Shown here: in pieces, positions 232 to 17,103 of the stretch
How positions within the stretch are numbered: position 1 is the stretch's first letter
Layout of the letters: each line of letters begins with the position of its first letter
NCBI RefSeq assembly: GCF_000286355.1
Contig: NZ_AJXN01000110.1
Coordinates: 1 to 64,000 of the forward strand
Direction: 5' to 3'
From: Kocuria atrinae C3-8
GTDB taxonomy: Bacteria; Actinomycetota; Actinomycetes; Actinomycetales; Micrococcaceae
DNA length: 64,000 nt
Translations under genes and position numbers: made by a program
The notes under the pieces: model-generated
What the model was told of the DNA's origin: nothing
Databases searched by the model: none
The model's input: the letters and a program-made list of their open reading frames with translations, nothing else

Positions 232-1426
232 ATGACCGCAACGCCCCCGTTCCCGCCCCTCGTCGAGCCCGCGCCGGCGCTCAGCCACGAAGAACTCGAG
301 CGCTACTCACGCCACCTCACGCTCCCGCAACTCGGAGTCGAGGGCCAGCGGCGCCTCAAGAACGCGCGCGTGCTGGTCATCGGAGCCGGCGGGTTGGGCG
401 CTCCGGCCCTACAGTATCTGGCGGCCGCGGGCGTCGGAACCATCGGAGTGATCGATGACGACGTGGTCTCCGTGTCCAATCTGCAGCGCCAAGTGGTGCA
501 CGGGATGGCAGACATCGGCCGCCCCAAAGTGGATTCCGCCGCCGACGCCGTGGCCCGCCTCAACCCCCTGGTCACCGTCACCACGCACGGCGAGCGCCTG
601 ACCACCGACAACGCCCTGGACATCTTCTCCGGGTACGACTTGATCATGGACGGCGCGGACAATTTCGGTACGCGCTATCTCGTGTCCGACGCCGCCGAGC
701 TCGTGGGGATTCCGGTCGTGTGGGGGTCGATCCTGCGCTTCGACGGCCAGGTTTCCGTGTTCTGGTCCGGGCACGGTCCGGTGTATCGGGACCTCTTCTC
801 GGAGGCACCGGCGCCGGGCCAAGTTCCTTCCTGCGCGGAGGGCGGCGTGCTCGGCATGCTCCCGGCCACCATCGGCTCGGTCATGGTCACCGAGCGCTCA
901 AACTCATCACGGCATCGGCCGCCCGCTGGTGGGTCGCGTGCTCATCCACGACGCCCTCGCCCAGACCTGGCGCGAGCTGTCCGTCCTGCCGGACCCCGAC
1001 CGCCCACCGATCACAGATCTCTCACAGGTCGCCGTGGCCTGCGGCCTCCCCACCGCCGACGACGCCGCTCCCGCCTCCCACGAAACCCTCACCGCTTCCG
1101 AGTTGGCCGGGTTACTGACCTCTCGCTCATTGGGTGAAACGTCCTTCACGCTGATCGACGTGCGCGATGACTGGGAACGGGATCTGGTCTCCATCCCGGG
1201 ATCCGTACCGGTTCCGTTGCAGGAGATCCTCGTCCGCGGCGTGGCTGCGCTGCCGGATTCGGTGGAGGGCAACGTGGTGCTGCACTGCAAGGCCGGAGTC
1301 CGCTCCGCTCAGGCGCTCGGTGCGCTGCGCGGGGACTACGCACTGCGGGAGGACACGGTTAAACATCTGGACGGCGGTGTTCTCGCGTGGGTCGATCAAG
1401 TGGACCCGTCGCTGCCGCGCTACTGA
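232..1426 (+). CDS. moeZ: MoeZ/MoeBR-type adenylyltransferase-sulfurtransferase (two frameshifts)
   Basis: The protein adenylates the C-terminus of a ubiquitin-like sulfur carrier (MoaD/ThiS/CysO type) and passes sulfur to it. The N-terminal ThiF/MoeB domain has the nucleotide loop GAGGLG at about residues 51-56 followed by the family's D-x-V-x-x-S-N-L-Q-R-Q segment. The C-terminal rhodanese domain has the active loop HCKAGVRS with its Cys near residue 353. Only one Cys remains before AEGGVLG, so the CxxC zinc motif of E. coli MoeB is absent, as in many MoeBR proteins. The frame breaks near 886-922. Restoring a G in GAGCG (to GAGGCG) and a G in ACGGC (to ACGGGC) gives an uninterrupted 397-residue protein, the usual MoeZ size. 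The start is the ATG immediately preceding TATPP; family assignment is firm, the exact start less so. Confidence 0.87.
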
Positions 1427-1475
1427 AGTGCTTTGAAGTCTCATGTGATTCACATGCCAATTTCCGGTACGGAAT

Positions 1476-1502
1476 CTGCACTCTCATCCCCTGAGAGTGC
1501 AG
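1476..1502. repeat. Perfect 11-bp inverted repeat after moeZ
   Basis: CTGCACTCTCA and its exact complement TGAGAGTGCAG are separated by five bases (TCCCC). It lies 50 bases after the moeZ stop and 111 bases before the next start. No T-tract follows, so it is either a weak terminator of moeZ or an operator for the downstream dehydrogenase. A second short repeat, CATGTG-ATT-CACATG, lies just before it at 1442-1456. Confidence 0.5.
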
Positions 1503-1613
1503 GGCCGCGTTTCCCCCACACGGGGTGCCTCGAGCCCCTGCTTTCAGATACGCGTGTCACCATTAAAGTGACGGCTGCGCCACCCGGGCCGGCCGTATTA
1601 CTGAGGAGAGATC

Positions 1614-3084: not shown

Positions 3085-4905
3085 CGCTGCGCTCCGTCCT
3101 GGTCGTTGGTGCCGATGGTGGACTGATCCGGTTCGGTCGCGGGCTGGTTCGGGCATCTTCGACTGCGGAGGAAGCGACGACGCCGTCCTCCCGCAGTCGC
3201 TGCTCGGTCTCACCCTCGTGCTTCTTCCACCAGTTGCGGAAGGACTGCTTGGGCGGTTCGGGGATGTCTCGCTGCTGCGTCCAACCGCCGACCATGCCGG
3301 GCAGCCAGCCGATGGCGTGATCGCGTCCGGCCACCACACGGCCCAGCGGCAGACCCTTTTCAGCCAGAGACATGCGCTTACCCGAGGACATCACGAAGGA
3401 AGCGCCCTTCATCATGGCGTCCATCTGAGTCGGGACCTTCTTAGCCGGCGCGGACTTGGAGATTTTCCGCCCGGCGGAGCGCACGGACGCCGCAACATCA
3501 CTCGCGGCGTCACGCACGGCAGCCCCGCGAATACGCGTGCCCGGATCGGTCCGCTCGGAATCCGCATCACCCGTGAGCGCCTTCTCGGCACGCCAGTTGT
3601 CCGCGGCGTTCACGGCGGGATCGTGCGAAACGGGAGCCGGAGCGGCGTCGTCCTGGGTGCGTTCGCCGTGCTGGGTGCGAATGTCCTCGTCGCGCAGGTG
3701 CACCAGGATGTCCGGAATATTGATCTTGACCGGGCACACCTGGTAACAAGCGCCGCACAGCGAGGACGCATACGGCAGGGAGGCGTTCTCCTCGGAGGTG
3801 ATGCTCGTGAGCTGCGGCGACAGGATTGCGCCAATGGGCCCGGGGTATGTGGAGCCGTACGCGTGACCGCCGGCGTGCTCGTAGACCGGGCACACGTTGA
3901 GGCATGCTGAGCAGCGGATGCAGTGCAGCGCCGAACGGCCGTCCGGATCGGACAACACCGCGGAGCGGCCGTTGTCGAGCAGCACCACGTGGAAGTTCTG
4001 CGGCCCGTCGCCCGGGGTGACACCCGTCCACAGCGAAGTGTAGGGGTTCATCCGCTCGCCCGTGGAGGACCGCGGGAGCAGCTGGAAGAAGACCTCGAGG
4101 TCCTCGTACGAAGGCAGCAGCTTCTCGATTCCCATGACCGTGATCAGGGTGTCCGGGAGCGTGAGGCACATGCGACCGTTGCCCTCGGACTCGACCACGG
4201 ACAGCGTGCCGGTATCGGCGATACCAAAGTTCGCGCCACTGATCGCCACGCGGGTGGTCAGGAATTTCTCTCGCAGGTGCTGACGCGCGGCCTCGGCCAG
4301 CACGCGCGGTTCGCTCGTGAGCTCGTCCGTGGTTTCGGGCATTTCGCGGCGGAAGATCTCGCGGATCTCCTCGCGGTTCTTGTGGATCGCGGGAACCAGG
4401 ATGTGCGAGGGCTTGTCGTGGCCCAGCTGCACGATCAACTCCGCGAGGTCGGTTTCGGTCGCAGTGATGCCATGTTCCTCGAGGTGCGCATCCAGGCCGA
4501 TTTCCTGCGTGGCCATCGACTTGACCTTGATGACGTCCGAGGTGCCGGTCGCCTGCACCAGCTCGGTCACGATCCGGTTGGCCTCGTCCGCGTCACGCGC
4601 CCAATGGACCACTCCGCCGCGCGCGATCACGTTCTGCTCGAACGCCTCGAGCAGTTCGGGCAGGTTCGCCATCACGCGTTCCTTGATGGCCGAACCGGCA
4701 TCGCGCAGCTGCTGCCAGTCCGGGACCTCGCCCACCACATTGGCGCGCTTGCCGCGGATGGTGTGCGTCGCGTGCCGGATGTTGGCCCGCATCTGATCGT
4801 TCTTGAGTTCTTCCTTGGCGGCCTTAGGGAACGCCACCTTCGCGTGCAGATTGCCCTGCCGTGCACGGGCCGCACCGCGGGCATGCCCAGATTGGTGATG
4901 CTCAT
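3081..4905 (-). CDS. lutB: LutB-like iron-sulfur lactate utilisation protein (two frameshifts)
   Basis: Large subunit of the LutABC lactate oxidation system. An N-terminal LUD domain (residues about 60-330) is followed by two cysteine clusters, CIRCSACLNVCP and CGACYQVCP, that bind two [4Fe-4S] centres. The C-terminal extension of about 200 residues is polar and Ala-rich, longer than in Bacillus LutB. The start is fixed by GGAGG five bases upstream, and the ATG overlaps the lutA stop (ATGA). Two breaks are seen: near the N-terminus (CACGGCAG, probably CACGGGCAG, at about 4860) and near 3141 (AGCCCG, probably AGCCCCG). After repair the protein is 608 residues and ends in an ATGA overlap with lutC, which supports both repairs. 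Confidence 0.88.
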
Positions 4906-5735
4906 CGGTTTCCTCCAGCGTTCGACGCCGCTCGCGCACCTCGCGCGGGAATGGACAGTTCAACGGGCCCCTCCACCACGAGGGGGTTCTCCTTGGTGGA
5001 GGCCAGAATCTCCACGAAGTGCACGGTACGCACGGTCGCTTTGCGCTTGGACGCGGCACCGCCCAAGTGCATCAGGCACGAAGCGTCCCCGCCGGTGCAC
5101 AACGAGGCACCCGTGGCCTCGACATTGCGCAGCTTGGCCTCGGCCATGGCACCGGAGACATCCGGGTTCTTGAAGGAGAAGGTGCCACCGAATCCGCAAC
5201 ATTCCTCGGCATCCGGTAGCTCGCGGTAGTCGATGCCACCCACGGACTTCACCAGGTCCTTCTGCCGGTCCCCCAGGTCCAGCAGGCGCATGCCGTGGCA
5301 CGAGGGGTGGTAGGTCACCGTCTCCGGGAACCACGAACCGAGCTGCTCAGCGGCGTCAGTCACACCCAGCACGTCGATCAACAGTTCGGACAGCTCATAG
5401 GTGTTGGCGGCAACGTCTGCGGCCTGCTCGGCCAGCAGGTCGTCACCGCACTTGCGGGCAACCATCGGCTGTTGGTGCCCCAGCGAGGCGACGCACGAAC
5501 CGGAAGGCGCCACGGCTACGTCGTACTCGACCTCGGTGAAGGCTTTGACGTGATTGCGGATGACCGGCATCGCGTCGTCGAAGTAGCCGCTGTTGACGTG
5601 CATCTGGGAGCAGCAACCTTGCCCCTGCGGGAACACCACTTGGTGGCCGAGCCGCTCCAGAACGCGCACGGTGGCCAGCGCCACCTTGGGATACATAGCG
5701 TCCACGATGCACGTGGCGAACAGTGCGATTCTCAC
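4902..5735 (-). CDS. lutA: LutA-like (Fe-S)-binding lactate utilisation protein
   Basis: First gene of lutABC, 277 residues, cytosolic. It carries two CCG-type heterodisulfide-reductase domains. The second has the cysteine pair in AEECCGFGGTFS near residue 205, and the first shows the family's CIVDAMYP and GCCSQMH elements. The GTG start is chosen because GGAG lies eight bases upstream; the open frame continues further up but that part has no ribosome binding site and contains an operator. Transcription is probably controlled by the GntR regulator encoded at 7691 through the TGGTCTGACCA site at 5766, 31 bases before this start. Confidence 0.9.
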   Translation of the reverse strand: MRIALFATCIVDAMYPKVALATVRVLERLGHQVVFPQGQGCCSQMHVNSGYFDDAMPVIRNHVKAFTEVEYDVAVAPSGSCVASLGHQQPMVARKCGDDLLAEQAADVAANTYELSELLIDVLGVTDAAEQLGSWFPETVTYHPSCHGMRLLDLGDRQKDLVKSVGGIDYRELPDAEECCGFGGTFSFKNPDVSGAMAEAKLRNVEATGASLCTGGDASCLMHLGGAASKRKATVRTVHFVEILASTKENPLVVEGPVELSIPARGARAASNAGGNR

Positions 5736-5765
5736 AACGTTGATCTCCGATACCTCTGGCTCCTG

Positions 5766-5776
5766 TGGTCTGACCA
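5766..5776. promoter_or_regulatory. GntR/LldR-type operator 1
   Basis: TGGTCTGACCA, a perfect 5-bp dyad around one central base, lies 31 bases upstream of lutA. The same dyad occurs twice more in this intergenic region. It has the TGGT-N3-ACCA form used by FadR-subfamily GntR regulators of lactate and pyruvate genes. Confidence 0.75.
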
Positions 5777-5880
5777 TGCTAGGTGAGTGAACACGATCAC
5801 ACAAGCAAGCTTTCCCTGTGGATCACAAGAAGAGGCTTGGAAAGTGACTGTTCAGTGTGACGAGCATCATGTATGCTTCG

Positions 5881-5891
5881 TGGTCTGACCA
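5881..5891. promoter_or_regulatory. GntR/LldR-type operator 2
   Basis: Second exact copy of TGGTCTGACCA, 50 bases before the lactate permease start. Its start lies 115 bases from operator 1 and 14 bases from operator 3, so operators 2 and 3 would present neighbouring sites with their centres 14 bp apart. Confidence 0.75.
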
Positions 5892-5894
5892 TTG

Positions 5895-5905
5895 TGGTCC
5901 GACCA
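5895..5905. promoter_or_regulatory. GntR/LldR-type operator 3
   Basis: TGGTCCGACCA, differing from the other two copies only at the central base, which a dyad leaves free. It lies 36 bases before the permease start, probably overlapping the permease promoter or transcript start. Confidence 0.73.
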
Positions 5906-5940
5906 TACGAACGGACCCACCGGAGCGCACAGGAGACAGC

Positions 5941-7609
5941 GTGACCACATTTACCGCCATGACCGACGCCGTGGGTGGCAGTGTCGGACTTTCAGCCTGG
6001 TGGGCTGCATCCCCCTGCTCACGTTCTTCGTGATGCTGCTGGCCTTCAAGACCAGCGCCCACGTTGCCGGCCTCACCGCACTGGGCGCCGCGCTGCTCGT
6101 GGCGATCTTCGGCTTCAACATGCCTGCGCAGCTGGCCGCGCTGAGCGCTACGCAGGGTGCCGTCTACGGCCTGTTCCCCATCGTGTGGATCGTGGTCATG
6201 GCGCTGTGGTTCTACCAGGTCACGGTGCTGTCCGGGCGCTTCGAGGACCTGCGCACCATCTTCGACACCATCGGCGGCGGAGACCTGCGCATCCAGGCCA
6301 TGCTGATCGCGTTCTGCTTCGGCGGTCTATTGGAAGCCCTTGCCGGCTTCGGCGCACCGGTGGCGATTACCGCAACCATGATCCTGGCGCTGGGTCTCAA
6401 GCCGCTGAAGACCGCAACCGTGGTGCTGATCGCCAACACCGCGCCCGTGGCCTTCGGCGCGATCGCCATCCCGATCACCACCGCCGGCGTGCTCACCGGC
6501 CTGGATCCGGCACACATCGGTGCCGTGGTCGGTCACCAGGCACCGTTCTTCGCGTTCGTGGTCCCGTTCTTCCTGCTCATGATTGTCGACGGCGTTCGGG
6601 GCCTCAAGCAGGCCTGGCCCGCCGCGCTGGCCGTGGGCGGCACGTTCGCAATTGCCCAGTGGTGGTGCGCCACGCACTTCTCGTACGAACTCACGGACGT
6701 CGTGGCCTCGCTGGCCGGCTTGGCCGCCGCCGTGATCCTGATGCGTTTCTGGAAGCCCAAGGGCACTGAGGAGGTCCGTGCAGATCTGGGCATTGATCGC
6801 CCCCAGAGTGTAGAGGGCCTGACCCCTGTGCGCGCATGGATGGCCGTGCTGCCCTACATCCTGGTGGTCGTGGTCTTCGGTATCGCCAAGCTGTGGACCT
6901 GGGGCATCAACATTCCCCAGGCGTTGGCCGCCACCGACATCAAGATTCCCTGGCCGGGCCTGCACGGGCACCTGCTGAACGCCGCGGGTGAACCGATTTC
7001 CGGTTCCGTCTACAACTTCCAGTGGCTCTCCAGCCCCGGCACGCTGCTGTTGATCTCCGGCCTGTTGGTCGCCATCATCTACTCGGTGTTCAACCACCAC
7101 GGCCGTTTCAAGCTCACCGTGGGCAACGCGATTGCGGAAATCGGTCGCAGCGCGTGGAAGATGCGCTTCTCCGCTTTGACCATTGCCTCGGTGCTGGCCC
7201 TGGCCTACGTGATGAACTTCTCCGGCCAGACCATCTCCATCGGCACGTTCGTGGCCGGCCTGGGTGCGGCGTTCGCGTTCTTCTCCCCCGTGCTCGGTTG
7301 GGTGGGTACCGCCGTGACCGGTTCGGACACCTCCGCCAACGCGCTGTTCGCCAACCTGCAGAAGACCGCGGCCCTGGAATCCGGGCTGGATCCCTACCTG
7401 ATGACCGCCGCCAACACCTCCGGTGGCGTGGTGGGCAAGATGATCTCGCCGCAGTCACTCGCCATTGCCGCGACCGCCGTGAGCATGCAGGGTCAGGAGT
7501 CCAAGATCTTCCGTTCGGTGATCCCGTGGTCCATCGGCATGCTGATCGTGCTGTGCGCCTGGTGTTCTTGCAGTCCAACGTGCTCGCTTGGATGCTTCCC
7601 GCCGCATAG
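5941..7609 (+). CDS. lctP: L-lactate permease, LctP family (two frameshifts)
   Basis: Polytopic inner-membrane transporter (about 556 residues, 12-14 predicted membrane segments) that takes up L-lactate with protons, feeding LutABC encoded divergently. Hallmark LctP stretches are GGLLEALAGFGAPVA, VIANTAPVAFGA, and near the C-terminus GTAVTGSDTSANALF and NTSGGVVGKMISPQS. AGGAG lies 6-7 bases before the GTG start. Two single-base losses are inferred, one near 6005 (after the Trp-Trp-Ala of the first helix) and one near 7560 (GCCTGG). After repair the product ends in LQSNVLAWMLPAA. Regulation is probably by operators 2 and 3 upstream. Confidence 0.9.
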
Positions 7610-7623
7610 ACTTGGCGATGCAT

Positions 7624-7670
7624 AAACCGCCCGCTACTCGTGCATCACGGGTGGCGGGCGGTTTTCTTTC
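7624..7670 (+). terminator. Rho-independent terminator of lctP
   Basis: AAACCGCCCGC pairs with GCGGGCGGTTT, and the stem continues inward with two G-U wobbles to a 3-base loop, giving about 19 pairs, followed by TTTTCTTTC. It lies 14 bases after the lctP stop and directly before the regulator's ribosome binding site, so lctP and the regulator are probably only partly co-transcribed. Confidence 0.85.
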
Positions 7671-7690
7671 AACGACCGCAGGAGGACCGC

Positions 7691-8413
7691 ATGGTTGCCA
7701 CCCCCGCCTACACGGTGGTGTTGAACTGGCTCGAGGAGCAGCTGCGCCACGGGAAGATCCGCGTGGGTGACAAACTGCCGGCCGAACGGGCGCTCGCCGA
7801 GCACTTCAGCATTTCCCGCGCCTCGGTGCGGGAGGCCATTCGGATCCTCGATGCCATGGGGCTGGTTCGCTCAGCCACGGGTTCCGGCCCGCAAGCGGGA
7901 GCCACCGTGGTCTCCGAGCCCTCGGCCGCCCTGGGGTGGGCGCTGCGCATGCACATCGCGACCAGGGCGCTGCCGGTCAAGGACGTGGTGACCACGCGCT
8001 TGATGCTGGAGACGCAGGCGGCGTGGGATGCGGCGTCGGGAGAGAATGCCGACCTCTCGAATCGTGACGACATCCTGAACCAAGCGCGAGAGCTACTCGA
8101 CCGGATGGACGATCCCGAGATTTCCAACGAGGAATTCCATACGTTGGACGCTCAGTTCCACCTGCTCCTGACGTCTTTGGCCGGCAACGTGGTGCTGGAG
8201 ACCATCATGGTGTCGTTGCGCGAGGCCACCATCGGCTACGTCCAGGAAACGGTGGCCACCCTCGAAGACTGGCCGAGCATCCGTACCAGGTTGCAGACTC
8301 AGCACCGCGAGATCCTTGCCGCAGTAACCGCTCGCGACGGCAAGCAGGCGACCCGCATGCTGCGCGATCACATCAACTGGTTCTACAGTCTGGTACCCCG
8401 CACGGAGAAGTAA
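7691..8413 (+). CDS. lutR: FadR-subfamily GntR regulator of the lactate locus
   Basis: A 240-residue DNA-binding regulator. The N-terminal winged helix (residues about 5-75) contains the GntR signature LPAERALAEHFSISRASVREAI. The C-terminal FCD ligand domain (about 95-230) has the metal/ligand histidines typical of the family (FHTLDAQFH and later H residues in QHREI and DHINW). The ATG is set by GGAGG five bases upstream. Its position beside lctP/lutABC and the three TGGTCnGACCA dyads indicate that it is the lactate-responsive repressor; lutR or lldR would both be apt names. It is followed by its own strong terminator. Confidence 0.87.
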   Translation: MVATPAYTVVLNWLEEQLRHGKIRVGDKLPAERALAEHFSISRASVREAIRILDAMGLVRSATGSGPQAGATVVSEPSAALGWALRMHIATRALPVKDVVTTRLMLETQAAWDAASGENADLSNRDDILNQARELLDRMDDPEISNEEFHTLDAQFHLLLTSLAGNVVLETIMVSLREATIGYVQETVATLEDWPSIRTRLQTQHREILAAVTARDGKQATRMLRDHINWFYSLVPRTEK

Positions 8414-8447
8414 CCGCGGGGTTCTAGGCCACCGTGGACAACGGAAA

Positions 8448-8485
8448 AAAGTGCGGCCCCTCCTGGTCGAGAGGGGCCGCACTTT
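8448..8485 (+). terminator. Terminator of lutR
   Basis: A perfect 15-bp stem, AAAGTGCGGCCCCTC and its complement, around an 8-base loop. A-run before and T-run after, so it could work in both directions. Confidence 0.85.
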
Positions 8486-8776
8486 CACTTCTCATGGTGC
8501 TGACGCGACGGGAGTCTCGGAGCGTCACGCAAGGTGATCCAAGTCTTCCGGAGCTCTAACCGGGGAGGGCCATACAAGACCCCCGCCGCGAGTTCAGCGT
8601 GACCCAAGCTTTCGTGCCGCGGCGCCGTACACTCACCGCATCCACTCAAGGTCCTGAGCCGGTGAACACTTCCTTCGTCGTGTTCATGTATTACTTTGCC
8701 GCACTGCACCGCCGGGGGAACATGGCCAAATGGCCAGAGTTGTGGCCCCTAACCTGTTAAAAGCCTGTGAGTGAGT
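8486..8776. other. Non-coding gap with no recognised gene
   Basis: These 291 bases between the lutR terminator and the response regulator stop have no convincing coding frame. A TGGCCAAATGGCCA dyad lies at 8723-8736. I see no tRNA or riboswitch fold. It could hold a small RNA or only the 3' trailer of the leftward regulator mRNA. Confidence 0.35.
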
Positions 8777-9540
8777 TCACTGGGTCAGATCTTCGGTCAA
8801 TTCGGGCTGCACCAGACCGCTCTGAATGCCTGCGATCAGCACCTGGACACGGTCCCGAGCGCCCAGCTTGTCGCACAGTTGAGAGACGTACGCCTTGACG
8901 CTGCCGTGGGAGACCTTCATCTGTTCGGCGATCTCGTTGTTGTTGAGCCTTTGGCGATCCAGCGCAGTGTTTCCAACTCACGGGTGGTCAGATCCGGGAC
9001 GAAGGATTGCTGACTGGTCGGCACGGGTGACTCCTCAGCCGGTGCGCTGGACACCTCGCTACGACTTCTGCGCACCGAAGGAACCGGCACATCACCCAGC
9101 ACATTATTTGCCAGCGAATTCGCCACGGACTGTGACAGTGTCATTTCATCTTCACGCACCTGGAGCACCGCAGAAACAATTTCTTCGTGGCGTGCGTCTT
9201 TGACGAGATATCCGGAGGCACCCGCTCGCAGGGCGGGCACGACATACTCCAAAGTAGAAAAGGTCGTGAGTGCCAGAACTTTGGAGCGCGGAGCTTGCTG
9301 AACGATCTGAGCGGTGGCCTCGATCCCGTCCATTCCGGGCATTCTGATGTCCATGAGCACCACATCAGGGTCCAGCTCCAGGCACCTCTGAACGGCCTCG
9401 GCTCCTTCGGACGCTTCACCCAAAACTTCGAAACCGGGTTCGGCATCAAATAAATTCCGTAGCGCGTCGCGCATGAGTGGATGGTCATCTACCAGAATTA
9501 GGGTGCACAAACTCATAGTCTGATCATAAACTGATCGCAT
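8777..9540 (-). CDS. NarL/LuxR-family response regulator (frameshifted)
   Basis: A 254-residue two-component response regulator. The receiver domain has the acidic DDHP pair, the phospho-acceptor Asp in VVLMDIRMPG and the Lys in GYLVKD. A polar linker of about 50 residues leads to a LuxR-type HTH beginning LTTRELETLRWIAKG. The frame breaks in that helix near 8949; restoring one base (AAAGGnCTC) recovers LNNNEIAEQMKVSHGSVK and a normal C-terminus. The ATG at 9540 has GAGGAG six bases upstream and is the best start; ATG 9516 is an alternative that begins nearer the receiver fold. The cognate kinase is encoded divergently at 9742. Confidence 0.87.
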
Positions 9541-9748
9541 GAACTCTCCTCATGCCATTTCCCGCATCCATACTGACCAAACCGACTCTTTATCGAGTTT
9601 CAAGCGAGCCCTCGCTGCAACACTGATCACGTGCTCCATCGTGTTCACGGTGGGCGGTCCTGCCTTGAGCGCTCAGCAGGGTCCTGCAGAGAAGGGACCC
9701 AGCGCCGTAGTGTGCCGCTACTTCCCCCAGCTCTGCGGCGGGTGGTAA
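9539..9748 (+). CDS. Small secreted two-cysteine peptide upstream of histidine kinase
   Basis: A 69-residue open frame that looks like a secreted peptide precursor. Residues about 21-45 form a signal peptide (Lys-Arg, then a hydrophobic core, then PALSA). The predicted mature part is about 24 residues and ends CRYFPQLCGGW, with Cys59 and Cys66 placed to form an 8-residue disulfide loop. Its stop codon lies inside the first codons of the kinase gene, which suggests translational coupling. No ribosome binding site precedes the ATG; a TAAACT -10-like box ends 6 bases upstream, so a leaderless mRNA is possible. No other start codon is available. I do not recognise the family. A role as the signal for the adjoining two-component system is inference from position. 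Confidence 0.55.
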   Translation: MNSPHAISRIHTDQTDSLSSFKRALAATLITCSIVFTVGGPALSAQQGPAEKGPSAVVCRYFPQLCGGW

Positions 9749-10941
9749 TCGCCGCTCCGGCCGGATCCACCTCAGTGCGGGAGGGTTTCAACCGCACCAG
9801 TCCACTCCCGGTCTGGCTTCGTGTCACGCTGGTGCTCTTTGCTGCCATCGCGCTCTTCGACGATCTTCGGGCGCTGGAGCCCGAGGATCACGCCGCTACG
9901 ACCACGGTCCTCGTAGCCGTTCAAATGATTCTGAGCTACGGTTCGTTGGCCCTGGTGGCTTGGCGGCCAGGTATTGCGAGCGCGCTCCTCCTGGTCCCAC
10001 TCGTCCTCGCGCTGTTCACCCACAGTTACGCATTCACACTCATTTGCGCGGTGATCATCACCATTGCGACTGTGAGCATGCTGCCGCGCACGTTGACTCT
10101 CCTCTACAGCGTGGTCCTCGCGACGTGGACCATTACGGCCGTGGTGGTGGAGAGCACCACGGACGCCTTGTGGCTCATGGGAACACCCCTTGTCATCGGC
10201 GTGGTGATCGGGGTGGCACTGCGATTCTTCGTGATTCAGCACCGGGAGAACAAGGCTCGGCTGAGGAGTATCGAGGCCGCGCATCAGCAGTTGCGTGAAC
10301 AAGAACGATTGGAGCTCGCGCGAGACCTGCACGACGTGGTGGCCCACGAACTCACCTTGGTTACCATGCAGGCTGCGGGAGCCCACCGCCAGAACGATCC
10401 TGCGGTGCTGCACGAGACCATTTCCACCATGGAGAACGCTGCCCGCTCCGGCCTCCAAGAACTCCGTACGTTGCTTCACATCTTGCGTGAATCCCCGGGC
10501 GCCGCGAGTCGCAATGACAGCTCGTCAGGGTTGACCACCGGCTCCCTCGAGAACCTTCTCGACTCTCTCAGCGCAAGCCTTACGACATCCGGTTTCTCCG
10601 TCACCGTGAAGACCGTGGATGGCTTCGACAAGCTACCCACCTCCGTTCGAGGCACTGCGGCGCGCATCCTCCAGGAGGCCTCCACCAACATCATCAAGTA
10701 CGCCCCGGCCGGTTCGGAGTGCTTGTTGTCCCTCACCACGGATTCCAATTCGGTCATGATCCGCACCGAGAACGAGCTACAGCACTCTTACCGACCCAGC
10801 TACGGGGAATACCCGATGACGTCCGGTTACGGCCTGCACGGCATCCAGGAGCGTGTGGCGCTGCTCAACGGCGAGGTCACTTACGGCGCCCAAGACGGCC
10901 GCTGGGTCCTGGATGTGCGGATACCGTTCACCGATGCCTGA
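9742..10941 (+). CDS. DesK/NarX-type sensor histidine kinase
   Basis: A membrane sensor kinase of about 399 residues. The N-terminal half has five or six membrane segments with short loops and no large extracellular domain (residues about 20-165). A short coiled segment follows, then a HisKA_3 phospho-acceptor helix with the His in RDLHDVVAHELT, and a HATPase domain with ILQEASTNIIKYA (N-box) and GYGLHGIQER (G-box). The GTG at 9742 overlaps the upstream peptide's stop by 7 bases; GTG 9778 is an alternative start closer to the first membrane helix. The 3' end overlaps the ATL gene by 8 bases. Its partner regulator is the divergent gene at 8777-9540. Confidence 0.85.
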   Translation: MVIAAPAGSTSVREGFNRTSPLPVWLRVTLVLFAAIALFDDLRALEPEDHAATTTVLVAVQMILSYGSLALVAWRPGIASALLLVPLVLALFTHSYAFTLICAVIITIATVSMLPRTLTLLYSVVLATWTITAVVVESTTDALWLMGTPLVIGVVIGVALRFFVIQHRENKARLRSIEAAHQQLREQERLELARDLHDVVAHELTLVTMQAAGAHRQNDPAVLHETISTMENAARSGLQELRTLLHILRESPGAASRNDSSSGLTTGSLENLLDSLSASLTTSGFSVTVKTVDGFDKLPTSVRGTAARILQEASTNIIKYAPAGSECLLSLTTDSNSVMIRTENELQHSYRPSYGEYPMTSGYGLHGIQERVALLNGEVTYGAQDGRWVLDVRIPFTDA

Positions 10942-11296
10942 GCCGTCGGCACCTCTCACGGGAGAAGCCGCCGCACGGGCGGTCCGCGGCGTGGTGCTCG
11001 CCGTTCCCCCCGGAGCGGTGCTGTCCTACGGTGATGTAGCGGAACTTGCGGGACTGAGTTCCCCCAGGCTCGCCGCCCGCATCATGTCCCGTGGCCTGGC
11101 CGGGGACGACGTCGCCTGGTGGCGAATCGTGCGCGCGGACGGCTCTCTGCCGGATCACCTGCAGATCGCCGCCCGTGAGCACTATCTGGCCGAGGGGACA
11201 CCCCTCAAGGAGACCGACGCTCACCTGGTGCAGGTCGCCATGCGAACGGCGCGCTGGGACGACCCCCCGGAAGTTTTCCCGAGCCCTGCGGATTGA
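10934..11296 (+). CDS. Alkyltransferase-like (ATL) protein
   Basis: A 120-residue cytosolic protein with the C-terminal DNA-binding fold of O6-alkylguanine transferases: VPPGAVLSYGDVAELAG is the helix region that reads DNA. The alkyl-acceptor motif PCHRV is replaced by AWWRIV, so the catalytic Cys is absent. Known ATLs of this kind bind O6-alkylguanine and hand it to nucleotide excision repair. The ATG overlaps the kinase stop by 8 bases, so it is probably translated from the same mRNA; whether this link is functional is unknown. Confidence 0.85.
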   Translation: MPEPSAPLTGEAAARAVRGVVLAVPPGAVLSYGDVAELAGLSSPRLAARIMSRGLAGDDVAWWRIVRADGSLPDHLQIAAREHYLAEGTPLKETDAHLVQVAMRTARWDDPPEVFPSPAD

Positions 11297-11361
11297 GCTC
11301 CCATAACTCCGCACATCCGTGGGCGGGTGACTCAGTCCTTCGCGGGATTGCCGGGTGAAAC

Positions 11362-12333
11362 TCAGTACTCCGTGGGGCCGGCGACCTCGTAGAACGGTCC
11401 CTTGGGATCGAAGGCGCGTCCGGTGAGACGTTCGTAGGCTTCCACGTAGCGTGCACGGGTCTTCTCGACCACGTCTTCCGGAAGTTCCGGGACCGGTCCG
11501 TTGCCGTCCCAACCGGACTCTTCGGAGCGCAACCAGTCGCGCACGTACTGCTTGTCGAACGAGGGCTGCGCCTGTCCCGGTTTGTAGGTCTCCGCGTCCC
11601 AGAAGCGGGACGAGTCCGGGGTCAGAACCTCGTCGCCCAGGGTGATGGCACCGCGGTAGGAATCCAGTCCGAACTCCATCTTGGTGTCGGCCACGATGAT
11701 CCCGCGTTCACGGGCGATCTCCTCGGCCTCGAGGTAGATGTTCAGCGAAAGCTCACGCAGCCGGTCGGCCACGGCGTTGCCGACCACCGCGGCCATCTCC
11801 TGGAAGGTGATGGGTTCGTCGTGTTCGCCCAGTTCCGCTTTGCCCGTGGGCGTGAAGATGGGGCTTTCCAGCCGATCACCGTCTTCCAAGCCTTCCGGCA
11901 GTTCCACCCCGCAGACGGAGCCAGACGCCTTGTAGTCCTTGAGGCCCGAGCCGGTCAGATAACCGCGCACGATGTTCTCGACCGGGAACATGGACAGGTT
12001 TTTGCAGATCACCGCGCGGCCACGCACGGACTCGTGCACGTCGGTCGTGAGGATGTGGTTGGGGATCCCCGTGAGTTGTTCGAACCACCACAGGGACAAC
12101 TGGTTCAGGATGATGCCTTTATCCGGGATCTCGGTGGGCAGCACCTGGTCGAACGCGGAAATCCGATCGCTCGCGAGCACCAGCACAGAACCGGCGCGGT
12201 ATTCGGCGTTGTCGTTGATGGCCACGCCGGTGGCCCGCAATCGGGATTCGTCCGGAATGTAGAGTTCGCGGACCTTTCCCGAATACGCGTGCTTCCACCC
12301 GGGGATCTCGGGCGGTGCGGGGTGCTCACTCAT
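11362..12333 (-). CDS. purC: Phosphoribosylaminoimidazole-succinocarboxamide synthase
   Basis: SAICAR synthetase, 323 residues, joins CAIR and aspartate with ATP in de novo purine synthesis. The N-terminus has the family motif YSGKVRELY (phosphate-binding K-V-R), then VLVLASDRISAFDQVLPTEIPDKG, and later DTKMEFGLD and DSSRFWDAETY, all characteristic. The frame is intact. Its ATG overlaps the purD stop (ATGA), so purD-purC form an operon read leftward. A short C-terminal extension (AFDPKGPFYEVAGPTEY) is usual for actinobacterial PurC. Confidence 0.95.
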   Translation of the reverse strand: MSEHPAPPEIPGWKHAYSGKVRELYIPDESRLRATGVAINDNAEYRAGSVLVLASDRISAFDQVLPTEIPDKGIILNQLSLWWFEQLTGIPNHILTTDVHESVRGRAVICKNLSMFPVENIVRGYLTGSGLKDYKASGSVCGVELPEGLEDGDRLESPIFTPTGKAELGEHDEPITFQEMAAVVGNAVADRLRELSLNIYLEAEEIARERGIIVADTKMEFGLDSYRGAITLGDEVLTPDSSRFWDAETYKPGQAQPSFDKQYVRDWLRSEESGWDGNGPVPELPEDVVEKTRARYVEAYERLTGRAFDPKGPFYEVAGPTEY

Positions 12334-13624
12334 GCTTGCTCCTCAGCTGTGGTCGGGAGGGTGATGCGCCCCTCGGCGGCAGCGAGCGCGATGTCACTGC
12401 GGTAGTGCGCGCCGGGGAGGGAGATCAGTTCCATTCCCCGATATCCGCGCTCGCGTGCTTCATGGAGATCTGTTCCGTGGGACACCACGGCCAGCACGCG
12501 GCCACCGGCGGAAACGATGTCCCCCGCGTCATTCTTTGCGGTGCCGGCGTGGATCACGTGGGTCTCGTCCACGGATTCCACTTGGTCCAGGCCACTGATG
12601 ACATCGCCCTTGCGCGGGGCACCGGGGTAGTTCTGGGCCGCGAGCACCACCGTCACGGAGGCGCCGGACTTCCACTGCAGGGTGCGGTCCTCGGACAGGC
12701 GACCCCTGGCGGCGTCGAGCATGAGCTCACCGAGCGGTGACTCGAGCATCGCCAGAACGGACTGGGTCTCCGGGTCGCCGAAGCGAGCGTTGAATTCGAT
12801 GACCTGCACGCCCCGTTGGGTGACCGCAAGACCGCAGTAGAGCACGCCCACGAAGGGTGTGCCGCGGCGTCGTAATTCGTCGACCACGGGCCGAGCCACA
12901 CGCTCGATGACCTGCTCCGTGAAGCCCTCGGGCAACCACTCGAGAGGCGTATATGCGCCCATGCCACCGGTATTGGGGCCCTGGTCGTTGTCGCGCACGC
13001 GCTTGAAGTCCTGCGCGGGGATCAACGGCACCACGCGCTCACCGTCGGTGATCACGAACAGCGAGACCTCGGGGCCCTCCAGGAACTCTTCGATCACCAC
13101 GGAGCCGCCGGCCTCGATGCACTCGCGGGCGTGGGCTTCCGCACGGTCACGCTCGTTGGTGACCACCACGCCCTTGCCCGCGGCCAGGCCGTCGTCCTTG
13201 ACCACGTGCGGCGCGCCGAACTCGGCGAGCGCCTCACGCACCTCCGCCATGTCCGAGGTGGCCACGGCGCGAGCGGTGGGCACGTTGGCTGCGGCCATGA
13301 TCTCCTTGGCGAACGCTTGGAGCCCTCGATGTGCGCAGCGTCCTTGGAGGGGCCGAACACCGGGAACCCGGCTTCACGCAGGGCATCGCCCACGCCCGCC
13401 ACCAGCGGCGCTTCCGGGCCCACGACCACGAGGTCCGCGTGCAGCTGGCGAGCCAGCTCGGTAACCGCTTCAGGGTCCTGAGCGTTCACGGCGTGCACCG
13501 GGACGTCCTGGGCGATCCCGGCGTTACCGGGCGCAGCGTGGACTTCGCTGACCTTGGGATCTGCCAGCAGAGACTTGATGATCGCGTGTTCTCGGCCGCC
13601 TGGGCCCACTACCAAAACCTTCAC
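12330..13624 (-). CDS. purD: Phosphoribosylamine-glycine ligase (frameshifted)
   Basis: GAR synthetase, 431 residues after repair, ATP-grasp enzyme of purine synthesis. It begins [15 protein letters not shown], has the ATP-grasp lysine region [15 protein letters not shown], and the metal/substrate segments [10 protein letters not shown] and [14 protein letters not shown]. One base is missing near 13316 (AAGCG instead of AAGGCG, minus strand); repair gives GSKAFAKEIM. The GTG start has no clear ribosome binding site; TACGCT lies 6 bases upstream and could be the -10 of a leaderless transcript. The divergent neighbour is the asparaginase. Confidence 0.92.
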
Positions 13625-13695
13625 GTGCTCAGCGTATCGGCACCGGGTCCACCTACTCCAACGTTTCGCATGATCGCGCTGACATACTGGGCTGT

Positions 13696-14697
13696 ATGCA
13701 CACATTCAGTTCTGAACAGGCCGTCGATCTCGCCGAAGTGGAGCGCAGCGGATTCGTGGAATCCCGGCATCGCGGCTCCGCCGTGGTGTTGGCACCCGAT
13801 GGCTCCGTGGCCTTGTCCCTGGGCGCCCCGGACGAACTGATCTTCCCCCGCTCCACCCTCAAGCCGTTCCAGGCCATCGCGTCCATGAAGGCCGGCGCGC
13901 CGCTGCGCGGGGATCAGGTGGCCATCGCCGCCGCCTCTCACACCGGCACGTTCGATCACCTGGACGCCGTGAGCTCCATCCTCAAGGCCGCAGGCCTGAC
14001 CCCAGACTCCCTGCAGTGCCCGCAGGACTGGCCGCAGGACGAGGACACCCGTGCGTGGCTGATTCGCACCGAGCGCGGCAAGAACCGCATGTGCATGAAC
14101 TGCTCGGGCAAGCACGCGGCCTTCTTGTGGGCTTGCGTGGTCAACGAATGGCCCCTGGACACCTACTTGGATCCACAGCACCCGTTGCAGAAGCTCGTGG
14201 TCGAGACCATCGAGGACTTCTCCGGTGAAAAGGTGCAGCACGTGGGCATCGACGGCTGCGGTGCGCCGCTCACCGCACTCACCCTCACCGGACTGGCGCG
14301 CATGTATTCCACGTTGGGGCGCGCCGCTCGCAATATCCAGGCGGACGCCCGCGCGGCCACGGTCGCGACCTCCATGCTCGACTACCCCGAATACGTTCAG
14401 GGCCCCGGCCGCTCCAACACCGTAATCATGGAGGAGTTGGATGTGATCACCAAGCTCGGCGCAGAAGGCGTCCTGGGTCTGGGCACGCGCGGCGGTTGGT
14501 CCGTGGCCATCAAGATGCTCGACGGTTCCTCCCGCGCCAACGCGCTGGTGGGCCTCACGCTCCTGGCCCAGGTGGGCGCGATTTCTTCCGACGACGCCGC
14601 CCGCGTCCTCGACAAGGTCCTGCGCCCCATTACCGGGGCCGGCAAACCCGTGGGCGCCATCAAGCTCGCGCGTCCCGTTCTGGACCTGCTCGACTGA
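13696..14697 (+). CDS. Type II-like asparaginase (Rhizobium etli class)
   Basis: A 333-residue intact protein of the Asparaginase_II family (serine-hydrolase-like fold unrelated to E. coli AnsA/B). Conserved family segments are RGSAVV near residue 26, [11 protein letters not shown] near 49, AASHTG near 73 and [11 protein letters not shown] near 135. It is predicted to hydrolyse L-asparagine to aspartate and ammonia in the cytosol. No Shine-Dalgarno sequence precedes the ATG; CATACT ends eight bases upstream, compatible with leaderless transcription. The next gene starts 61 bases downstream. Confidence 0.88.
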
Positions 14698-14758
14698 TCA
14701 GTGGTCCCCCATTGATCCGCTCCGACCAAATCGCAACGAATTCTGGAGGAACCGCACC

Positions 14759-15124
14759 GTGAGCGTGCGTCGCAAGATCAATCCCGCGGACGGAACTCTG
14801 GCACTGGCCCAGTGGCGCCAGGATCCCGAATCCACCCCGCGCAAGACCACGGCCTTGGCCGTGCGGTACTGCCTGGAGGAACTGGCCACCCGTGCGGAGG
14901 GAAATTCCGTGGAGGTGCGTGTACCGCCCTTCGGCGTGACCCAGTGCGTGGCCGGGCCTCGTCACACGCGCGGGACTCCCCCGAATGTGGTGGAGACAGA
15001 TGCAGCCACCTGGCTCCGTCTTGCGACCGGACAACTCGAATGGGCGAGTGCCGTGGCGAACGGGGCCGTGGCGGCGTCGGGAACCAGGACCGACCTCTCC
15101 GACTGGTTACCGCTGTTCGACTGA
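14759..15124 (+). CDS. SCP2-like sterol carrier family protein
   Basis: A 121-residue protein with the pattern of the bacterial sterol-carrier (SCP2-like) family found next to purine genes in actinobacteria: a helical N-terminus (LAVRYCLEELATRA), the strand segment VEVRVPPFG, and WLRLATGQLEWASAVANGAVAASGTR at the C-terminus. GGAGG lies nine bases before the GTG start. The ligand is unknown; lipid or cofactor binding is suggested only by fold. The name is given with moderate confidence. Confidence 0.72.
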   Translation: MSVRRKINPADGTLALAQWRQDPESTPRKTTALAVRYCLEELATRAEGNSVEVRVPPFGVTQCVAGPRHTRGTPPNVVETDAATWLRLATGQLEWASAVANGAVAASGTRTDLSDWLPLFD

Positions 15125-15205
15125 ACCGGTTGTCAGCAAACCCCCCCCGGCCCGCACCGACTCCCGTGTACGTGGGGCGCGGTATCCCGCGATAGCCTGG
15201 AACCC

Positions 15206-15547
15206 ATGAGTTCCGTGCCCAACAACACCCCCGAGCCCGCTTCCCACGAGCCTTCGCGTGAGGAACGGATGACCATCCGCCGTGCGCCCAATCTGCTCGC
15301 ATTCCTCATCACCGGTGCGATTCTGGGTGCCGTGGCAGGCGTTCTGTTCGGTCTACTGGGTCCCGAGTCGCAGTCCTACACCCGCGGTTCCATCATGGGA
15401 TTCTTCCTGGTCATCGGACTGGTGATCGGCGCCGGTCTGGGCTCGGTGATCTCCTTGATCATCGACAAGATTTCGCTCAAGCGCAGCCGCGATGTCACCG
15501 CACAGGTTGATGACGTACACGACAGTGGTGACCGCCCCGGATCATGA
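15206..15547 (+). CDS. Small membrane protein upstream of purF
   Basis: A 113-residue protein with a polar N-terminus of about 27 residues and two membrane helices (about 30-52 and 62-88) separated by a short loop (GPESQSYTRG). The C-terminal tail is charged and cytosolic. Small two-helix proteins of this pattern commonly precede purF in actinobacteria; no function is known. It lies 12 bases upstream of the purF start and is probably co-transcribed. Confidence 0.75.
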   Translation: MSSVPNNTPEPASHEPSREERMTIRRAPNLLAFLITGAILGAVAGVLFGLLGPESQSYTRGSIMGFFLVIGLVIGAGLGSVISLIIDKISLKRSRDVTAQVDDVHDSGDRPGS

Positions 15548-15559
15548 GACACTGCTCTT

Positions 15560-17103
15560 GTGGTTCGATCCGATGGAAAACTCACTCATGACATCTTCCC
15601 CGGCGAAAAAGGCCCCCAGGACGCGTGCGGCGTTTTCGGTGTGTGGGCCCCCGGCGAGGACGTAGCCAAACTCGCATACTACGGTCTGTACGCGCTGCAG
15701 CACCGCGGACAGGAGTCCGCGGGCATTGCCACGTCCAGTGGCGAGCGCATTTCGGTTTACAAAGACATGGGCTTGGTGTCCCAGGTCTTCGACGAGACCG
15801 TCCTGAACACCCTCCAAGGGCACGTGGCCGTGGGTCACTGCCGCTACTCCACCACCGGTGGTTCCCACTGGGCCAACGCACAGCCCACCCTGGGCGCCAC
15901 CCCGCACGGGACCGTAGCGCTGGCGCACAACGGCAACCTGACCAACTCTGCTGAGCTCTACGACCAGCTCATCGACAAATCCGGTTTCCCGTCCCGCGGT
16001 GAGATGGCCCAGGGCAACACCACGGACACCGCGCTGATCACGGCATTGCTGGCCGAGCATCCTCACGAGTCACTCGAGGACGCCGCCATGCATCTGCTGC
16101 CCAAGCTCACCGGCTCCTTCTGCCTGTCCTTCATGGACGAAACCACACTGTACGCCGCTCGCGACCCCCAGGGCATCCGCCCACTCGTGCTGGGTCGCTT
16201 GGAGCGCGGCTGGGTGGTCGCATCCGAAACCGCCGCCCTGGACATCGTCGGTGCCTCGCTGGTTCGCGAAATCGAGCCCGGCGAGTTCATTGCCGTGGAC
16301 GAGAACGGCCTGCGCACCCGTCAGTTCGCCGAGCCCAAGCGCGCCGGTTGCGTGTTCGAGTACGTGTACCTGGCCCGCCCGGACACCACCATCAACGGCC
16401 GCTCGGTGTATGAATCCCGCGTGGAGATGGGCCGCCAGTTGGCTCGCGAGCACGCGGTCGAGGCCGATCTGGTCATGCCCACCCCCGAATCTGGCACCCC
16501 GGCGGCCATTGGTTACGCGGAAGCTTCCGGTATTCCGTTCGGGCACGGACTGGTCAAGAACTCCTACGTGGGACGCACCTTTATCCAGCCCTCGGACACC
16601 ATTCGTCAGCTGGGCATCCGGCTCAAGCTCAATCCGCTGCGTTCAATCGTCGCCGGCAAGAAGCTCATTGTGGTGGACGATTCGATCGTGCGCGGCAACA
16701 CCCAGCGCGCCTGGTGCGCATGCTCCGTGAGGCCGGTGCTGCCGAGATCCATATCCGAATCTCGTCCCCGCCCATCAAGTGGCCGTGCTTCTACGGCATC
16801 GATTTCGCCTCTCGTGCGGAATTGATTGCCAATGGTCTGGCCGTAGAAGACATCCGCGCCTCACTGGGTGCCGATTCCCTGGGGTACATCTCCCAGGAGG
16901 GCATGGTGGAAGCAACCAAGCAGCCGCGGGAGATCTTGTGCACCGCGTGCTTCTCGGGTACCTACCCCACCCCCTTGCCCGAAGCCGACAAGCTCGGCAA
17001 GGCTGTGCTTGAGGCACCGGGCAGCACGGTGCCGTCCTCCAAGGACACCACGACCATCGAGACCGAACCCCAAACCCCTGCCACCCAGGAGAACAGCGCA
17101 TGA
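15560..17103 (+). CDS. purF: Amidophosphoribosyltransferase (frameshifted)
   Basis: First enzyme of de novo purine synthesis, converts PRPP and glutamine to phosphoribosylamine. The N-terminal Ntn glutaminase domain has the nucleophile Cys in QDACGVFGVW, exposed after removal of a short propeptide, followed by ALQHRGQESAGIA. The PRPP-binding loop is VVDDSIVRGNT, and CFSGTYPTPLP lies near the C-terminus. One base is missing near 16711 (GCGCCTGG, restored GCGCCCTGG), which rejoins the halves as NTQRALVRMLREAGA. The protein is 514 residues after repair. The stop overlaps purM by ATGA. Confidence 0.95.

Follow-up and report, generated by a model that had tools for sequence, protein, structure and literature searches.

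The window analysed here is a stretch of 64,000 nucleotides from Kocuria atrinae C3-8 (contig NZ_AJXN01000110.1, positions 1 to 64,000), in which a gene for a 69-residue protein directly precedes a sensor histidine kinase gene. The 69-residue protein is probably the precursor of a secreted peptide signal that is read by the downstream kinase. This interpretation, which had been put forward in an initial annotation of the stretch, is based on the conservation of the gene, its signal-peptide-like leader, a conserved pair of Cys residues with a central Pro or Gly, a steady partnership with one clade of kinases and a divergent regulator gene, and it is supported by the findings that the peptide is kept with the orthologous kinase in all 19 Kocuria genomes that have it and that its tail is conserved over its leader. 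The peptide and kinase genes comprise the following elements, all on the plus strand.

9539..9748, plus strand: peptide precursor gene, an open reading frame (ORF) of 69 residues (MNSPHAISRIHTDQTDSLSSFKRALAATLITCSIVFTVGGPALSAQQGPAEKGPSAVVCRYFPQLCGGW), product predicted to be a secreted Cys-ring peptide
9539..9673, plus strand: predicted Sec signal peptide, residues 1-45, with a basic FKR, a hydrophobic stretch and an A-x-A-like end, as read from the sequence
9674..9745, plus strand: mature peptide QQGPAEKGPSAVVCRYFPQLCGGW, 24 residues if cut after residue 45 (from the sequence and alignment A1)
9713..9736, plus strand: predicted disulfide ring C-RYFPQL-C, from the C-x6-C pattern
9742..9748, plus strand: overlap of 7 bases between the peptide end and the GTG start of the kinase
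9742..10941, plus strand: sensor histidine kinase of 399 residues, HisKA_3, with 5-6 membrane helices and no external domain seen (Pfam, DesK relatives, helix scans)

The ORF at 9539-9748, whose TAA stop codon occupies 9746-9748, bears out the annotated 69-residue precursor with its signal-peptide-like leader and the tail CRYFPQLCGGW, in which Cys59 and Cys66 are separated by six residues, as had been noted. Cleavage by signal peptidase is expected, judging from the leader, after ALSA (residue 45). The annotated overlap of 7 bases is likewise present, with the kinase GTG at 9742 and the peptide stop ending at 9748. The peptide matched no Pfam or NCBIfam family at an expectation value (E) of 1 or less, and neither the peptide nor the kinase matched any PADLOC model of anti-phage defence at E<=0.01. 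No phage relative of the peptide and, at E<=1e-20, no plasmid relative of the kinase was found. A lipoprotein reading was considered for the hydrophobic stretch, which contains LIAC in the three close relatives and LITC in the window, and was rejected because LIAC is unconserved among the other Kocuria peptides.

Within the genus, profile A1, made of 13 Kocuria peptides from 13 of the 19 genomes that proved positive, finds the peptide in 19 of 27 genomes at E 3.8e-8 or better; matches of 1.7e-4 and weaker, which are scattered and signal-peptide-like, were left uncounted. The orthologous kinase is present in the same 19 genomes (E 1e-139 or better), and neither partner was found in the other eight. 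Six of the positive genomes (G002, G007, G013, G014, G016 and G021) lie outside the profile and are independent finds. Loss of the peptide frame from relatives with the same kinase had been named beforehand as the outcome that would speak against the annotation; the frame is conserved in 19 of 19, and the 69-residue ORF is a real gene. The relatives found with the kinase belong to Kocuria carniphila and two Kocuria sp. (Micrococcaceae), and a contig search with the kinase sequence alone found only three close Kocuria loci. All 12 kinase-holding Kocuria loci that were fetched (L025-L033 and L035-L037) contain, in a constant order, the divergent regulator, the kinase, an alkyltransferase-like gene, purC and asparaginase, and 11 of them contain a lactate permease and a GntR-type regulator on the other side, the twelfth (L026) beginning inside the regulator. 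The peptide was detected by BLAST at 1e-3 in nine of these loci and was seen in the translations of L035, L036 and L037.

The conservation is concentrated in the part of the precursor that would form the ring. P54, C59, P63 and C66 are invariant in all 13 rows of alignment A1, and mean pairwise identity among the 13 Kocuria peptides reaches 0.59 over residues 53-66, compared with 0.33 over residues 1-45 (permutation p 0.0009), as expected from the prediction that the tail would be better conserved than the signal peptide. That prediction had been worded for a C-x6-C-GGW tail, of which the C-x6-C ring holds across the family and the GGW is confined to the window and its three nearest relatives. 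Five of the eight genomes without the ortholog (G001, G003, G006, G017 and G024) contain a more distant kinase behind a different Cys-ring peptide. An apparent match to the window peptide in G003 (L011) has five internal stops and was dismissed as chance. A Kocuria-like peptide and kinase were also observed on a 3.9-kilobase contig (L068, G189:C96) of a genome assigned to genus code g4, with the ring CHWWSFFC, in which Ser replaces Pro; contamination or transfer is possible.

Selection on the peptide gene was estimated from the ratio of replacement to synonymous substitution rates (dN/dS) in the window and its three nearest relatives, which give six pairs. Synonymous changes far outnumber replacement changes; for residues 46-69, every one of the six pairs gives a dN/dS of 0.04-0.15, and residues 1-45 give 0.21-0.28 in five pairs and 0.13 in the nearly identical pair L026/L027. 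Purifying selection acts more strongly on the mature part than on the leader. In a set of 18 Kocuria orthologs, peptide-tail distance tracks the distance between the membrane domains of the kinases when the catalytic domain is allowed for (partial correlation r 0.43, 2/2001 permutations), and shows a partial r of 0.04 (575/2001) with the catalytic domain when the membrane domain is allowed for. These correlations hint that the peptide varies with the membrane domain of the kinase, that is, with the sensor.

Beyond the genus, the family was reached through the kinases, because searches with the peptide profile were swamped by signal-peptide noise. Related, non-orthologous kinases of Kocuria are also directly preceded by a small signal-peptide-like ORF with a terminal Cys pair, the tails including ...CGGWYFWC, ...CQYYGRCSR, ...CSFLFLRWC, ...CELLRLDCD, ...CKLLRSC and others. 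At E<=1e-52, at least 129 of 295 Micrococcaceae genomes contain relatives detected by the broader kinase profile A5, and three other families have them in fewer genomes; the wide-search tallies are lower bounds, only some candidates per genome (e.g. 6 or 7) having been scored. A Cys-pair peptide is present in 58 of 84 Micrococcaceae kinase loci examined, which were chosen by the author from the profile-search list, and is absent from 26; a larger set of 98, which adds 14 loci from other families, has 66 positives, a count that includes the chance ORF L342. Loci L230-L254, mostly seen already, were left out of the scan. Genera that had contributed nothing to the profile were peptide-positive in 14/14 (genus code g43), 7/7 (g4), 9/11 (g35) and 5/12 (g33) cases of the tree set. 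On a tree of 220 kinases, which has long branches and many unsupported forks, presence of the peptide changes 13 times, compared with 65-83 times in 100 shuffles. As only kinases with a peptide went into the wide profile, part of this clustering is built in.

The whole collection comprises 99 distinct signal-peptide-like Cys-pair precursors encoded immediately upstream of related kinases, from 18 genus codes and four family codes; 75 have C-x6-C spacing, 13 have C-x5-C and 11 have other spacings. Ring position 5 of the 75 C-x6-C peptides is Gly in 48 and Pro in 21 (69/75), compared with 20% Gly plus Pro in the last 30 residues, and the commonest residues around the ring are [WV]-[LVIFM]-C-[RK]-x-[YFLW]-[GP]-x-[LF]-C. 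The hallmark of the family is a C-x6-C ring in which position 5 is Pro or Gly. The chance match L342 was dropped from the 99 and was left in a set of 100 peptides; L068 is outside the 99, as it was not recovered from its short contig, and L339 and L341 were kept. ORFs listed beside real ones in L285 and L337 were rejected as chance, and the matches in L073 and L078 read as lying inside a recombinase-like gene.

Of 105 kinase frames with a peptide, 75 have a regulator motif divergently upstream, compared with 6 of 126 frames without a peptide; both sets include a few loci fetched twice, the 105 include L342, and many of the fetched stretches are too short to show a downstream regulator. More distant DesK-like kinases, used as controls, have the peptide in 0 of 25 loci of the class-wide set and in 1 of 61 among the lower-scoring order-wide loci L138-L199 (L186, which looks real); the whole order-wide set L131-L199 has five positives (L132, L133, L134, L135 and L186) among 68 loci with a kinase frame. 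In L186 (family code f11), a precursor at 1270-1590 (plus strand) ending in PWQCFLFPAMKSCR precedes a low-scoring kinase, which suggests that the peptide family extends beyond the kinase clade examined.

The kinase itself agrees with its annotation as a DesK/NarX-type kinase without an external sensor domain. It matches HisKA_3 (PF07730; E 5.9e-16, 59.2 bits against a cut-off of 24) and has five strong hydrophobic spans in a Kyte-Doolittle scan; a low-confidence AlphaFold model (mean predicted local distance difference test score 57) has N-terminal membrane helices with short loops and no extracellular domain. The only solved relatives found by sequence at E<=0.001 are fragments of DesK (YocF). 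Upstream lie the regulator gene and a short region shared with the peptide gene.

8777..9516, minus strand: divergent response regulator, probably of NarL type (Pfam Response_reg), with its frame broken near 8947 in the assembly
9517..9538, no strand: divergent promoter region of 22 bases, if the regulator starts at 9516
9527-9532, plus strand: TAAACT box, 6 bases before the start codon
9528-9523, minus strand: TATGAT box, 6 bases before the start codon

In the window, the receiver of the regulator scores 104 bits with Pfam, and GerE, the frame of whose helix-turn-helix (HTH) is broken, scores 13.5 bits, below the cut-off; the ortholog in L025 has Response_reg at 104.1 bits and GerE at 59.4 bits. 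NarL is the best NCBIfam model for the window regulator (122.6 bits, below its cut-off of 250).

These observations lead to a model of how the system may work. The precursor would be exported by the Sec pathway and cut by signal peptidase; outside the cell, the two Cys residues would oxidise, forming a spontaneous disulfide and a ring of eight residues that turns at Pro. The loop-poor membrane domain of the kinase encoded just downstream would sense the ring, and the kinase would phosphorylate the divergently encoded, probably NarL-type regulator and thereby change transcription. The output of the regulator would probably include the promoter shared by regulator and peptide, giving feedback and an autocrine or population-density signal. 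Translation and secretion of the peptide, its ring, its binding by the kinase and any dependence on population density are predictions. Lineages and paralogues differ in their ring sequences, as would be the case if they formed separate signalling types.

A possible output is indicated by a second, paralogous set in the window genome, which consists of a peptide ending in LPDDFLCKLLRSC, a kinase and a divergent regulator (L103, L357) and has a counterpart in genome G011 (L102, L358), where the regulator has both the receiver and the LuxR-type HTH. Both sets directly adjoin a cluster of the thiopeptide type for a ribosomally synthesized and post-translationally modified peptide (RiPP), the regions concerned being 8296-18676 of L357 (G000:C11) and 817-11297 of L358 (G011:C1). 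The G011 cluster contains Lant_dehydr_C / thiopep_ocin, Lant_dehydr_N and an M50 protease above the cut-offs and SagB-like dehydrogenases below them; that of the window genome contains Lant_dehydr_C at 117.7 bits, its other members being recognized by reading. A precursor of the thiocillin family (NF033482, above the cut-off) lies at 15505-15876 (minus strand) of L357, and similar ORFs were found by eye in L358. Control of bacteriocin production by a signal is a classic use of peptide/kinase pairs, and the thiopeptide-type cluster is the obvious candidate target of the paralogous set. At the window locus, a Pfam scan of the ten neighbouring ORFs (4905-16822) revealed no such RiPP cluster.

It is also somewhat more likely than not that a large, so far undescribed family of Sec-secreted, disulfide-ringed peptide pheromones with the core C-x3-[GP]-x2-C, each with its own kinase, is spread across Micrococcaceae and no fewer than three further families of the order, in many signalling types and with more than one in some genomes. 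Such a family would be an actinobacterial counterpart of Agr/ComX that has no dedicated maturation enzyme and in which at least one paralogous set would control a thiopeptide-type RiPP.

Other explanations of the small gene can be envisaged. The peptide could stay on the outer face of the membrane as an accessory sensor or an inhibitor of the kinase and report redox state or envelope stress, when its disulfide is opened or the peptide is sequestered, without any intercellular signal. DesK/LiaS-like kinases often sense the membrane, two Cys residues could report redox, and the translational overlap in the window could fix the stoichiometry of the partners. However, the ring between the conserved residues varies strongly between lineages, which would be unneeded for the sensing of redox or stress, and the overlap is not the rule, because in 47 of the 58 Micrococcaceae peptide loci the kinase frame does not open until the peptide stop or later (0-91 bases); the overlap, correctly annotated for the window, is thus a local feature and not a general one. 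An accessory role is unlikely. It is even less likely that the peptide is primarily a secreted antimicrobial, such as a small disulfide bacteriocin, sensed by the kinase and regulator for immunity or production. The short, Cys-paired and hypervariable peptide, with its predicted secretion by a leader, would fit this role, as would the RiPP cluster beside the paralogue, but Pfam detects no bacteriocin immunity or ATP-binding cassette (ABC) export family in the ten neighbouring ORFs of the window, where the sole transporters are the lactate permease and a weak MFS_1 match below the cut-off. Moreover, the pair is fixed beside housekeeping genes in 12 of 12 kinase-holding Kocuria loci, unlike mobile bacteriocin genes, and within Kocuria the differences between peptides follow the membrane domain of the kinase.

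The two remaining explanations deny the peptide any function. The 7-base overlap in the window and possible 4-base GTGA overlaps in several relatives would be compatible with a small ORF that has a functionless product and serves only to couple the translation of the kinase gene or to attenuate that gene; this is highly improbable, as the conservation of amino acids is concentrated in the tail, the leaders are kept, and the same ring core is found in loci without an overlap. That the ORF is a chance frame in DNA of high guanine and cytosine content is suggested by its small size only, and this reading, to which we give almost no credence, is already refuted by the co-occurrence in 19 of 19 genomes and by dN/dS well below 1; the family-wide pattern and the controls (0/25 and 1/61) also oppose it.

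Several observations weigh against a dedicated peptide signal for this kinase. When residues 53-69 are taken alone, the three pairs to which the window belongs give a dN/dS of 0.29-0.35, no lower than for the leader, compared with 0-0.07 in the three pairs without it, so that the ring region of the window has changed more than that of its relatives. Among 75 C-x6-C pairs, partial r is 0.53 for the catalytic domain and 0.12 for the membrane domain; because peptide distance follows the catalytic domain more closely, coevolution is not specific to the sensor in the broad set, where saturation of the membrane domains may perhaps explain the weaker link. The size of the ring is variable, 24 of the 99 peptides differing from C-x6-C. 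Moreover, the kinase can exist without the peptide: of the 26 peptide-negative Micrococcaceae loci, one of which (L346) showed no kinase frame, 12 belong to genus code g45, the peptide is present in 1 of 14 g45 cases in the tree set, and thirteen g45 kinases of the same clade, in L101, L290, L302, L303, L306-L311, L313, L315 and L327, showed no ring peptide in the scan. In this genus the kinase seems to be kept without its partner; the upstream neighbour in L101, L290 and L307 reads as a proline-racemase-like enzyme. In Kocuria, G020 has a related kinase (L329) without a peptide, and no kinase was found at 1e-35 in G019 (76% complete) and G026. Finally, the regulator frame of the window itself is broken, with the LuxR-type HTH shifted relative to the aligned frames of L025 and L027, both of which are unbroken. 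Since the window genome (G000) is 79% complete and in 221 contigs, this break may be an assembly error.

Comparison with described systems places the probable peptide signal near several of them. The system works like ComX-ComP but lies outside that family. In comQXPA of Bacillus, a small peptide gene likewise directly precedes the gene for a polytopic kinase of the HisKA_3 type that lacks a large external domain, the regulator is of the NarL type, as the one here probably is, and both the peptide and the membrane domain of the kinase are variable. ComX, however, has no Sec-type leader and carries a prenylated Trp, whereas the peptide described here has a signal-peptide-like leader and a Cys pair, and its regulator is divergent rather than downstream. 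The tail in the window ends in Trp and most tails of the family end otherwise; no ComQ-like prenyl synthase or prenyltransferase-like gene was detected by Pfam among the ten neighbouring ORFs at 4905-16822. AgrBDCA and Fsr of Firmicutes similarly employ a macrocyclic peptide, whose receptor is a polytopic kinase with no large external domain. Here, in contrast, a disulfide is predicted instead of a (thio)lactone, the kinase is of the HisKA_3 and not the AgrC class, and the regulator is NarL-like, with a GerE HTH in the L025 ortholog, and not of the LytTR type. Among the ten neighbours Pfam detects no AgrB-like processing gene, and the peptide has no AgrD-type match in Pfam or NCBIfam at E<=1.

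ComC-ComD and the plantaricin-type pheromones share with this system a secreted peptide, a kinase and a regulator, and the proximity of the paralogue to a bacteriocin-type cluster recalls them. They differ in having a double-glycine leader, where the leader here is of the Sec type (hydrophobic and ending in ALSA), and their kinases and regulators are of classes other than the HisKA_3/NarL-type pair; no ABC exporter was detected by Pfam among the ten neighbours. By its HisKA_3 domain and its similarity to the DesK fragments of known structure, the kinase falls in the broad DesK/NarX/LiaS class, which to our knowledge is not defined by a partner peptide; the more distant DesK-like kinases examined mostly lacked one.

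Most known cases of peptide signalling through membrane kinases come from Firmicutes. The initial annotation knew of no described actinobacterial system with this sequence, and no description of the system was found in the open-licence full texts of PubMed Central, the scope of a search that included six ring sequences as text. In the parts consulted of a 2016 review of quorum sensing in Actinobacteria, Kocuria and Arthrobacter appear only under bioinformatic evidence, from LuxR-type and receiver domains (PMC4748050). If confirmed, the system would unite ligand, receptor and regulator in one genetic unit in bacteria for which the literature searched describes no peptide signal, would appear to need no modification enzyme and would give studies of specificity dozens of natural ligand/receptor variants to draw on. 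The paralogue beside the thiopeptide-type cluster suggests that a silent antibiotic-type cluster might be switched on with a short synthetic ring.

The shared upstream region also merits description. In the window, two opposed -10-like boxes overlap within 22 bases, and TAAACT or TAAGCT stands 6-7 bases ahead of the peptide ATG in the window and in 11 loci of the window type; in L037, which represents a second Kocuria type, AGGAG precedes the peptide GTG instead. A scan for consensus promoters found no -35/-10 pair. Because the -10-like boxes are only 6-7 bases before the start codons, the sequence suggests that the mRNAs from this divergent region are leaderless. In the lactate permease ORF at 5892-7625 (plus strand), the frame that matches L025 and L027 changes for the last 21 residues, likely through another small indel of the assembly.

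Some kinases are preceded by unusual peptides. Related small ORFs ending in FICRAFPTANGC and FFCRAFPRASGC are found directly before the kinase in L339 and L341 (genus code g33); their hydrophobic N-terminus does not resemble a signal peptide that could be cleaved. Kinases of genus code g3 are preceded by peptides of other shapes, FCKILQHIPPFCKQAHQ in L094 and WLCKSGICD in L347, and L095 has a broken or single-Cys version; L094 and L095 have a kinase of the RELHDTVAR type, with the regulator downstream on the same strand.

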